In this document: one piece after another, positions 21,645 through 24,973 of the stretch
Layout of the letters: each line of letters begins with the position of its first letter
How positions within the stretch are numbered: the first letter of the stretch is position 1
Assembly (NCBI RefSeq): GCF_013402875.1
Contig: NZ_CP058579.1
Coordinates: 3,596,001-3,660,000 of the forward strand
DNA: 64,000 nucleotides
Source of the DNA: Halorarum salinum
GTDB taxonomy: Archaea; Halobacteriota; Halobacteria; Halobacteriales; Haloferacaceae
Direction of reading: 5' to 3'
Program-made: the position numbers and the translations under genes
The notes under the pieces: generated by a model
Told to the model about the DNA's origin: nothing
The model's input: the letters and a program-made list of their open reading frames with translations, nothing else
Databases searched by the model: none

Positions 21645-22352
21645 GTGCCGTCGTTCCGCTTTCGCGACCGCGCCGTCGTCGTGCCCGCCGCCGACGCGAT
21701 CGTCTGTGCCGACCTCCACGTCGGGCGGGGCGAGGCCTCCGACGTGGAGTACCCCGTCGGGGAGACGGCGGACCTCCGCGGACGGCTCCGGGAACTCCTC
21801 TCCGAGCACTCGCCGGGCGAGGTGGCGTTCGCCGGCGACGTCCTTCACCGGTTCCGTCGAGCGTCGGTCCGGACCGATCGGGCGCTCTCGGCGCTCGCCG
21901 ACGCGTGTCGGGACGCGGGCGCGAGGCCGGTGCTGGTCGCCGGCAATCACGACGCGATGCTCCCCGAGGTGTGGGACGGGCCCGTCCACGACGCGTACGC
22001 GCTCGAGGCGGACGGCGAACGGGTCGTCGTCCGCCACGGCCACGAGGCGCCGCCCCCCGACGAGACCGCCGACTGCTACGTCGTCGGCCACGACCACCCG
22101 ACAATCTCGGTCGAGGGGCACCGACGGCCCTGCTTCCTGTTCGGCCCGGAGCAGTTCCGGGACGCCGACGTGCTGATGCTCCCGTCGTTCACGCGGCTGG
22201 CCCCGGGCGTCCAGGTGAACGGCATGGGGACCAGCGACTTCGACTCGCCGTTCGTGACCGACGCCGACGCGCTCAGGCCCGTCGTCCGTGACCCGGACGC
22301 GGGCGAGACGGTGACGTTCCCGCCGCTCGGGGCGTTCAGGCGGATGCTGTGA
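21645..22352 (+). CDS. Metallophosphoesterase, ICC-like (COG1407 type)
   Basis: 235 residues with the calcineurin-like fold. Metal-site motifs in order: CADLHVGRGE near 23 (DxH), VAFAGDVLHRF near 62 (GDxxHR), VLVAGNHDAMLP near 96 (GNHD), VVRHGHEAPP near 127 and VVGHDHPTISV near 147 (GHxH). It should be a two-metal phosphoesterase; in archaea this group is sometimes encoded near helicases or recombination genes, but the substrate is unknown. Start is the GTG at 21645; the ATG at 21637 is out of frame. Confidence 0.85.
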   Translation: MPSFRFRDRAVVVPAADAIVCADLHVGRGEASDVEYPVGETADLRGRLRELLSEHSPGEVAFAGDVLHRFRRASVRTDRALSALADACRDAGARPVLVAGNHDAMLPEVWDGPVHDAYALEADGERVVVRHGHEAPPPDETADCYVVGHDHPTISVEGHRRPCFLFGPEQFRDADVLMLPSFTRLAPGVQVNGMGTSDFDSPFVTDADALRPVVRDPDAGETVTFPPLGAFRRML

Positions 22353-22482
22353 GTCGCGCCGAGGGTCGCGGGCCGACGGGCGGACCTGGCGACTGCGGCG
22401 AGTCGAAGACCTGACGGCCACGGCGAACCGTGCCGATTGCAGCGACCGGAACGGATACGGAGCACCCGCCGCATGCTCGGGT

Positions 22483-23604
22483 ATGACACGGGCCGAGGAG
22501 GGGGACGCGCCGGCGGACCCGATGGGGGACGTGTACCGCGTGCTCGACCGGGACGGGAATCCGGTCGAGCAGGTGCCCGACGTGGACGACGCGACCCTTC
22601 TCGACGTCTACCGCGACATGCGGGCCGCCCGTCGGTTCGACGAGCGGGCGGTCAGCCTCCAGCGGCAGGGACGCATCGGAACGTACGCGGCCATCGCCGG
22701 ACAGGAGGCCGTCTCCGTCGCGGGCACCCACGCGCTCCGGTCCGACGACCCGGTGTTCTACCAGTACCGCGAACACGGCGCGGTGATCGCCCGCGGGTTC
22801 CCGCCGGGCTATCTTGCGTACTGGATGGGCCACGAGGGGGGGACCGCCGAGCTCGCGGACGTCGACGTGTTCCCCCTGAACATCGGCGTCGCCGCGCACC
22901 TCCCCCACGCCGTCGGCGCGGCGATGGCGTTCGACCACCGGGACGAGGACCGCGTCGTCGCGGCCCACTTCGGCGACGGCGCGACCTCGGAGGGCGACTT
23001 CCACGAGGCGCTCAACTTCGCGGGCGTCTTCGACGCGCCGAACGTCTTCCTCTGTACGAACAACCAGTGGGCCATCTCGGTCCCGCGCGAACGACAGACC
23101 GCGTCCGACACCATCGCCGAGAAGGCCGTCGCGTACGGCTTCGAGGGCGTCCGCGTCGACGGGATGGACCCGCTCGCCGTCTACGACGTGACGCGGCGCG
23201 CGGCGGCGAAGGCCCGGGCGGACGACGGGGACGCGGACCACCGCCCGACGCTCGTCGAGTGTGTCGCGTACCGCTTCGGCGCACACACCACCGCCGACGA
23301 CCCGTCGGCGTACCGGGAGGAGGCCGAACTCGACCGGTGGAAACGGTGGGACCCGATCCCCCGGTTCGAGGCGTTCCTCCGCGGACGGGGACTGCTGGAC
23401 GACGAACGGGTCGAGGCGATCGGGGCCGACGCCGACGAGCGGGTGGCCGAGGTGATCGAAGCGGCCGAGTCGGTCGAGGCGGACCCCGCGTCCATGTTCG
23501 AGCACGTGTACGCGGAGCCGACCCCGGAGCTTCGGCGCCAGCGCGACGAGTTCCTGGACGCCCTCCAGCGTCACGGCCGCGACGCCTTCGAGCGGGAGGG
23601 CTGA
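22483..23604 (+). CDS. Thiamine-dependent 2-oxoacid dehydrogenase E1, alpha subunit (orphan)
   Basis: 373 residues, alpha subunit of the pyruvate/branched-chain dehydrogenase E1 type. Motifs: FDERAVSLQRQGRIGTYAAI near 45, YREHGAVIARGF near 88, and the ThDP/Mg site HFGDGATSEGDFHEALN near 167 ending in NNQWAIS near 195; the phosphorylation-loop-like RFGAHTTADDPSAYR lies near 267. Normally the beta subunit gene follows; here the next gene is an unrelated PLP-fold protein and no E1-beta, E2 or E3 is in the window. It may pair with a beta subunit encoded elsewhere. Haloarchaea carry several such paralogues, some required for amino-acid use rather than pyruvate oxidation. Confidence 0.85.
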   Translation: MTRAEEGDAPADPMGDVYRVLDRDGNPVEQVPDVDDATLLDVYRDMRAARRFDERAVSLQRQGRIGTYAAIAGQEAVSVAGTHALRSDDPVFYQYREHGAVIARGFPPGYLAYWMGHEGGTAELADVDVFPLNIGVAAHLPHAVGAAMAFDHRDEDRVVAAHFGDGATSEGDFHEALNFAGVFDAPNVFLCTNNQWAISVPRERQTASDTIAEKAVAYGFEGVRVDGMDPLAVYDVTRRAAAKARADDGDADHRPTLVECVAYRFGAHTTADDPSAYREEAELDRWKRWDPIPRFEAFLRGRGLLDDERVEAIGADADERVAEVIEAAESVEADPASMFEHVYAEPTPELRRQRDEFLDALQRHGRDAFEREG

Positions 23605-23697
23605 GTCCGGACGGCCGCCGGTTCCACGACCGCGCCGGCTCACCGCGGGCGGGCGCCGAACGGAAGCCACTATGCCCGGGGCGCCGAACGCCGCCGC

Positions 23698-24879
23698 ATG
23701 GAGACGACGCAGGCGTTCCGCGGGCTCGACTGCACGGGCTGTGGCGCGTCGTTCGACGCGAACGAGCACGGGCGCTGTCCCGAGTGCGGAGGGTCGCTCG
23801 ACCCGGCGTACGACTACGACGCGGTCGAACCCGGTGACCTCCTCGGCCGGACGTCCGACGACGGTCCGGGACACTGGCGGTACGACGCGCTGCTCCCGTT
23901 CCCGGCAACGGGCGGCCTGTCGGCGAACGAGGGCGACACGCCGCTGGTCCGGACCGATCGACTCGCCGAGGAGCTCGGCGTCGCGGCCGCGTACGTGAAG
24001 GACGAGGGCCGAAACCCGACGGGGACGGTGCTCGACCGCGGGATGAGCGTCGTCGCGACCGCCGCGGCCGACAGGGGGCTGGAACCGCTCGCGCTCGCGG
24101 CCGCCGGCAACGCGGGACAGTCGGCGGCGGCCTACGCCGGGCGGGCCGACCTCCGATCGTACGCGTTCGTCCCCTCGCGAACGGCCTTCTCGAACAAGGC
24201 CATGGTGAACGTCCACGGCGGCGACATGCGGGTCGTCGGCGGGCGCTACGCCGACGCCGCCGCGGCGGTGGACGACCAGCTGGAGACGGAGTACCACTCG
24301 CTCCAGGAGTTCACGACGCCGTACCGCCACGAGGGGGCGAAGACGATCGCCTTCGAACTGTTCGCGGACGTCGGCGTCCCCGACGCCGTCGTCGTTCCGG
24401 TCGGGACCGGCGAGTTGCTCGTCGGGGTCGTGAAGGGCTTCCGGGAACTCCGGGCGGTCGGCGCGACGGAGTCGCTCCCCTCGGTGTACGCCGTCCAGCC
24501 GGAGGGCTGCGCGCCCATCGCGACCGCGTGGCAGGCCGGCGCCGACGCCGTCGAGGCGTGGACCCGCCCGGACACCATCGTGGGCGAACTGGAGATCGAG
24601 GAACCGGCGGGCGGTGACCGCGCGCTCGCCGCGCTCGCGGACGCGGACGGTGACGCGTTCGCGGTCCCCGACGCCGACGCGCTCGAGAGCGCAGTCACCG
24701 TCGCACAGTCCGAGGTCCTCGAAGTCGGCGGCCCCGGCGGAGTCGCGCTCGCCGGCGCGTGGCGACTGGCCGAGGAGGGGGATCTGGACGCGGCGGAGGA
24801 GGTGGTCGTCGTGAACCCCGACGCCGGCGGAAAGACGCCCGACGTGTTGCGCAGCCACCTGATGGGGAAGGGCATCTGA
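23698..24879 (+). CDS. Threonine-synthase-like protein lacking the PLP lysine
   Basis: 393 residues in the fold type II family. N-terminal zinc ribbon CTGCGASFDANEHGRCPECG (12-31), then GDTPLVRTDRL near 79 and the segment NPTGTVLDRGMS at 106-117. Active threonine synthases read NPTGSFKDRG here, with the PLP-binding Lys; this protein has Leu112 (codon CTC at 24031-24033). The phosphate-binding AAAGNAGQSAAAYAGRA near 130 and VPVGTGELLVGVVKGF near 240 persist, as does VQPEGCAP. The end VNPDAGGKTPDVLRS also departs from the usual. So it is likely not a normal threonine synthase: either a pseudoenzyme or a repurposed fold. The reading frame is intact and normally biased. Confidence 0.85.
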   Translation: METTQAFRGLDCTGCGASFDANEHGRCPECGGSLDPAYDYDAVEPGDLLGRTSDDGPGHWRYDALLPFPATGGLSANEGDTPLVRTDRLAEELGVAAAYVKDEGRNPTGTVLDRGMSVVATAAADRGLEPLALAAAGNAGQSAAAYAGRADLRSYAFVPSRTAFSNKAMVNVHGGDMRVVGGRYADAAAAVDDQLETEYHSLQEFTTPYRHEGAKTIAFELFADVGVPDAVVVPVGTGELLVGVVKGFRELRAVGATESLPSVYAVQPEGCAPIATAWQAGADAVEAWTRPDTIVGELEIEEPAGGDRALAALADADGDAFAVPDADALESAVTVAQSEVLEVGGPGGVALAGAWRLAEEGDLDAAEEVVVVNPDAGGKTPDVLRSHLMGKGI

Positions 24880-24973
24880 GCCGTGCCCACGGCCGCAGCC
24901 GACTGCCCCGGCCGCTCGTCGTCCGCGGGTCGACGGTCGGCCGACCCCGCCGTTCGGTCCGCCACACATAAGG

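Follow-up and report, generated by a model that had tools for sequence, protein, structure and literature searches.

The window, that is, the whole analysed stretch of 64,000 nucleotides from Halorarum salinum, contains a threonine-synthase-like gene whose features are compiled in Table 1. According to profile searches, the encoded protein belongs to PALP fold type II (PF00291, 8.3e-61). With the curated family profiles PRK08197 and TIGR00260 it scores 251.5 and 137.9 bits, which is under the respective cut-offs of 303 and 167.1. When an AF2 model of the protein (pLDDT 89.8, pTM 0.91) was submitted to Foldseek, the top 17 PDB matches were all threonine synthases, the best being that of Arabidopsis with a query TM of 0.88. 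Residues 106-117 read NPTGTVLDRGMS, and in phmmer alignments with four threonine synthases of known structure, V111-L112-D113 is matched to F-K-D. This confirms the claim of an earlier sequence-only reading that a Leu encoded by CTC stands in the column of the Schiff-base lysine. A sequencing or reading error at Leu112, for which that reading had allowed, is ruled out by the presence of Leu in many independent assemblies. The zinc ribbon, which had been described as retained, has all four Cys in the window protein, but at three of the four columns Cys is found in just 69% of the Lys-less relatives (about 30% lost).

Table 1. Features of the threonine-synthase-like gene; positions are those of the window
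Feature	Position	Strand	Remarks
Putative Lys-less PRK08197-type threonine-synthase-like pseudoenzyme gene	23698..24879	+	393 aa plus stop, ATG start
Zinc-ribbon-like CxxC...CxxC, N-terminal (C12, C15, C27, C30)	23731..23787	+	Intact in window
NPTGTVLDRG, former PLP-lysine loop	24013..24042	+	Alignment of relatives
Codon CTC, Leu112	24031..24033	+	Schiff-base lysine column, Thermus ThrC K61
AAAGNAGQS, former PLP O3'-contact/carboxylate loop	24097..24123	+	N138 present in window
PSRTAFSNKAMVNVHGGDMRVVGGR, conserved orthologue-specific segment (R161, K167, N171, V172, R183)	24172..24246	+	Column comparison with canonical ThrC
PVGTGELLV, degraded phosphate-binding loop	24397..24423	+	Alignment; PTGGGVGL in Lys-bearing relatives
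PDTIVGELE	24568..24594	+	P291, D292, G296, E299 invariant in Lys-bearing and Lys-less forms; Glu at 297
Pro374, replacing the pyridine-N partner Thr	24817..24819	+	Alignment; Thermus T317
C-terminal tail, ending in DVLRSHLMGKGI	24823..24876	+	Least relaxed segment in Lys-less forms; missing from canonical ThrC

An antisense open frame of 877 codons (window 22336-24969, minus strand) extends over the whole gene; such frames are typical for high-GC haloarchaeal DNA, and it is probably no gene. A dehydrogenase E1-alpha gene lies directly upstream (window 22483-23604) and is also found near the gene in a genome of the same genus and in a few relatives, while a flavin amine-oxidase-like gene takes its place in many other lineages. 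Besides E1-alpha, genes for an iron-dependent-repressor-type regulator, GDT1, LysE, a metallophosphoesterase and a glycerol-1-phosphate-dehydrogenase-like protein are found nearby, and the locus has neighbours in common with the Haloferax and Halobonum loci. The neighbour set varies by lineage, and a search of it for functional hints yielded no clear partner. In H. volcanii, HVO_0817 has been described as a flavin-containing amine-oxidoreductase (PMC4300041). Since a gene of this type adjoins the Lys-less gene in Haloferax loci, the Lys-less orthologue of H. volcanii is probably HVO_0818; a search of open-access papers for this name found none that mentions it.

Degradation of the PLP site

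In the Lys-bearing orthologues, the residues K112, F111, N138, G236-G237-G238-V239-G240, and T374 are invariant. Their aligned counterparts in Thermus ThrC are K61, F60, N87, the phosphate loop, and T317, residues whose PLP roles are established for fold type II enzymes. Among 72 dereplicated Lys-less sequences, the lysine is retained in 3%, G237 in 7%, F111 in 14%, and V239 in 17%, and decay is less advanced at G240 (31%), T374 (60%), and N138 (65%). All 25 Lys-bearing representatives have 8 of 8 PLP-shell residues, the Lys-less forms keep 1-6, and the window protein has 3. Shell columns have suffered more loss than the remaining columns that are conserved among the Lys-bearing forms (Mann-Whitney p=0.004; Fisher p=0.02), and the mean column entropy of the phosphate loop is 0.07 bit in Lys-bearing versus 1.56 bit in Lys-less sequences. 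The phosphate loop of the window protein, which the sequence-only reading had regarded as remaining, is in fact altered to VGTGELL versus the TGGGVGL that is invariant among Lys-bearing relatives; in addition, Thr374 is replaced by Pro and Gly297 by Glu.

Lysine is sometimes retained beside a degraded loop. Two proteins (L062:6001-7188 with TSKDRG and L186:4536-5705 with TVKDRG) have the lysine together with a degraded phosphate loop and have sister species without it; the latter protein has also lost the Asn. In these cases, the lysine is either sometimes the last residue to go or has reverted.

It had also been considered that a lysine elsewhere in the protein might be used. An alignment of Lys-bearing and Lys-less relatives does not bear this out, as none of the lysine columns is confined to the Lys-less forms and K101, K167, K215, and K379 are conserved to an equal or higher degree in the Lys-bearing relatives. 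A further possibility is a lysine-independent enzyme that binds PLP non-covalently or has reused its pocket for another substrate or cofactor via Glu239 and Glu297. Glu is found at phosphate-loop position 239 in 38 of the 72 Lys-less sequences and replaces Gly297, which is present in all Lys-bearing forms, in 44; the two co-occur with an odds ratio of 8.5 (p=8e-5), a value in which shared ancestry is uncorrected. Position 297 aligns with A240 of Thermus ThrC, which presumably packs near the PLP ring in the structure. Such an enzyme would also agree with the conserved loops around the old site (N106-G109, D113, R114, R210, K215), of which N106, P107, T108, G109, D113, and R114 are retained in at least 93% of the Lys-less relatives, and with the conserved, orthologue-specific Cys271. 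A rebuilt active site would be expected to look different, however: the lysine, the phosphate loop, and often Asn138 and Thr374 have been lost with varied replacements, Ala, Thr, Arg, or Lys occur inside one genus, and columns specific to the Lys-less forms are limited to Ser160 and Gly306. A lysine-independent enzyme is therefore regarded as improbable.

Distribution and history of the Lys-less form

The lysine column was read in 80 named haloarchaeal loci and in 80 genus-representative genomes. Among about 200 sequences of the family and its paralogues, 83 have Lys and 69 have Leu, and about 47 relatives have another non-Lys residue (Ala, Thr, Arg, Val, His, Ile, Asp, Phe, Tyr, Glu, Gly, or Gln). 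Thus, the Leu substitution noticed in the window recurs widely, as the proposed count of Leu-bearing relatives shows, but the view of a single aberrant protein has to be replaced by that of a family-wide and probably recurrent loss in which diverse residues have taken the place of the lysine. In the window's own family, the named members of which are Haloferacaceae, Leu predominates and His, Ile, Phe, Tyr, and Thr occur in single lineages. In a genus of another family that clusters with named Natrinema sequences (g27), the residue is Ala, Thr, Arg, or Lys depending on the species, and every member of two further genera (g35, g71) has TFKDRG. When orthologues were delimited by a cut-off of E<=1e-58 and A2 paralogues (see below) were separated by a tree, 26 of the 80 genomes had a Lys-bearing gene at the locus, 50 had a Lys-less one, 4 had neither, and none had both. 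Matches outside the class, among 295 genomes sampled across the phylum, reached at most 232 bits and about 32-38% identity, which is the level of ordinary ThrC, so that the orthologous group is apparently confined to the class. Plasmid-borne relatives were looked for and none were found. Lys-less NPTG...DR motifs elsewhere (G375:C1:128248-128276, G238:C1:2198193-2198221) are possibly further degraded PALP paralogues or chance matches.

Three further relatives with the lysine are encoded in the window genome: the TFKDRG paralogue A2 (L002), which is 48% identical to the window protein; the canonical ThrC (L003), with 291.6 bits for TIGR00260 at a cut-off of 167.1; and a more distant Lys-bearing relative (L004). 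The second, intact thrC that had been suggested as a check is thus present. A separate canonical ThrC above the cut-off was found in 80 of 80 genus-representative genomes, and threonine synthesis therefore need not rely on the window gene. In H. volcanii, a transposon insertion in thrC3 (HVO_2969) caused auxotrophy that was rescued by Gly, Ser, and Thr (PMC4300041), which means that this step is not covered by any other paralogue; HVO_2969 would correspond to the canonical ThrC. A diverged Lys-bearing subfamily with NPTNTFKDRG and without the LRSHLM tail (L200, L201) is present as a second copy in two genomes (G372, G137) that also have the main orthologue.

One Lys-less protein (L056:6001-7185) reaches 341.7 bits with PRK08197, over the cut-off of 303, so that automatic annotation would name it threonine synthase. 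Proteins of this kind constitute a systematic annotation error.

In a 103-row tree computed from all columns, nearly all Lys-less forms fell into one clade (SH-aLRT 99). Because such a clade could also arise from the same residues decaying in parallel, the columns separating the two states were removed for reduced trees. A quick 93-row tree from the reduced columns had 3 state changes and did not reject a single Lys-less clade (p=0.42), and the log-likelihood rose by 20.5 versus the free search when one family (f4 plus Natrialbaceae) was forced together. In a careful 32-row tree from the reduced columns, there were at least 7 state changes and the genes largely tracked host families; here, a single Lys-less clade was 44.9 log units worse, with a p-AU of 0.08 for reduced and 0.17 for full columns. 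An rpoB-region tree of 30 genomes from the 32-row set required 12 changes and contained several well-supported mixed sister pairs. Flanking genes are common to Lys-bearing and Lys-less members of such pairs (e.g. L170/L133, L147/L156, L169/L165, L056/L080).

Because of the state changes on the trees and the mixed pairs with common flanking genes, repeated loss in place is favoured but not proven, and allele replacement by recombination is possible. Under a single ancient loss, a Lys-less form of one origin would have replaced the Lys-bearing form by reciprocal duplicate loss or homologous recombination. This scenario, which would likewise make the window protein a non-PLP pseudoenzyme, is consistent with the all-column grouping and with the AU tests, which do not reject one clade, but it is rather unlikely for three reasons. 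None of the 80 genomes has both forms together, the grouping is driven by decayed columns without which the Lys-less genes stand beside the Lys-bearing genes of their own family, and the likelihood rose when the two kinds of genes of one family were forced together.

Retained residues and possible function

The median pairwise dN/dS is 0.19 for Lys-bearing and 0.19 for Lys-less pairs, values that are only roughly comparable as the pairs were selected by protein identity. Judging from these ratios, the degraded form is under purifying selection. A decaying pseudogene or a sequencing artefact might be suspected from the lost catalytic residues and longer branches, but it is hardly credible for an open frame with this dN/dS ratio, a Lys-less state in 50 of 80 genus-level genomes, and Leu in independent assemblies. 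The longer branches of the Lys-less forms indicate that part of the protein is relaxed. Of the 154 columns conserved in the Lys-bearing forms, 50 are retained at 93% or more in the Lys-less ones, as expected of a protein that is still selected.

Columns specific to the orthologue were defined against 25 canonical haloarchaeal ThrC sequences. Residues that are specific in this sense and present in both states include R161, K167, N171, V172, R183, C271, P291, D292, G296, and E299 as well as R385, S386, M389, and G392 in the C-terminal part. The Lys-bearing paralogue A2 also lacks N171, R183, P291, E299, M389, and G392. The window protein has R161, K167, N171, R183, P291, D292, G296, E299, R385, S386, and M389. 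The rise in entropy upon loss of the PLP site is smallest in the C-terminal tail DVLRSHLMxxG (0.29 bit, versus 1.49 in the phosphate loop), and this tail persists, slightly altered, in the majority of the divergent members inspected. Mainly because the tail and the orthologue-specific residues are kept in both states, the conserved function would be independent of PLP chemistry and would predate its loss. The signature residues could also be structural instead of functional.

The interpretation as a haloarchaeal non-PLP pseudoenzyme, already offered by the sequence-only reading, is well supported, as degradation extends to the entire PLP site in a widely distributed group under selection, with an intact ThrC elsewhere in the genome. 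Sequence comparison shows a loss of the lysine and most of the PLP shell, a strict alternation of Lys-bearing and Lys-less forms, synteny, purifying selection, and a retained signature. The window gene is thus best described as probably encoding a non-PLP pseudoenzyme that is a same-locus orthologue of a PRK08197-type PLP enzyme and has been kept for a second function. In the proposed scenario, canonical ThrC would supply threonine synthase in every genome and make the PLP reaction dispensable. The retained role would be the binding of a partner or ligand via the C-terminal tail, R161/K167/N171/R183, and the P291-E299 segment. This non-catalytic function would be common to the Lys-bearing orthologues, and the PLP site would have been lost repeatedly. 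Both the retained binding and the dispensability of PLP are suggested by conservation. The fuller version, with at least about seven independent losses of PLP catalysis at one locus and retention for a function of the C-terminal tail and surface signature already in the Lys-bearing enzymes, is put forward tentatively.

A specific version of a retained non-catalytic function would be a helper subunit, i.e. an allosteric regulator of ThrC or A2 like the plant TSB-like protein. The canonical ThrC found in all 80 genomes and the fold-type II precedent (PMC12727527) are in line with this idea, which is nonetheless doubtful given the lack of genetic linkage to thrC.

Comparison with known systems

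Canonical ThrC (TIGR00260; Thermus 1uim/1v7c, B. subtilis 6nmx, Arabidopsis 2c2b) resembles the window protein in its PALP fold type II, the NPTG..DRG frame, and the overall structure. In contrast to canonical ThrC, the window protein has no Schiff-base lysine, no Thr partner of N1, and an altered phosphate loop, but has a C-terminal LRSHLMxxG tail that is missing from canonical ThrC. The haloarchaeal Lys-bearing PRK08197 'threonine synthases' (e.g. L080, L075, L058) are closer: they are encoded at the same locus, have about 50-54% identity, and contain the signature residues and the C-terminal tail. These forms differ from the window protein by a complete PLP shell (8/8 versus 3/8) and by PRK08197 scores of 376-393 bits versus 251.5.

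No description of the haloarchaeal Lys-less group was found in the open-access literature. The family already has a name, 'threonine synthase', but that its cofactor site has been lost appears to be undescribed. The alternation of the two states amounts to a naturally replicated experiment on the death of enzymes and on the causes of their retention, and the genetically tractable Haloferax has the dead form at the locus, which allows a direct search for the hidden function.

Catalytically dead proteins of PLP families have precedents. The plant TSB-like protein is a pseudoenzyme of a fold-type II PLP family that derives from an active enzyme and activates TSA (PMC12727527). It is similar to the haloarchaeal proteins in being a fold-type II PLP-family protein without the ancestral activity. 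However, its activity was lost via two other residues, whereas in the haloarchaeal group the PLP site itself is gone. Rv3778c of M. tuberculosis is a PLP-family protein without the conserved lysine that its authors judge to be non-catalytic (PMC12910592); it is a cysteine desulfurase relative of another fold type and a single case, in contrast to the recurrent decay of one orthologue. In general, pseudoenzymes are described as single events after duplication, whereas in the haloarchaea active and dead states alternate at one locus throughout the class.
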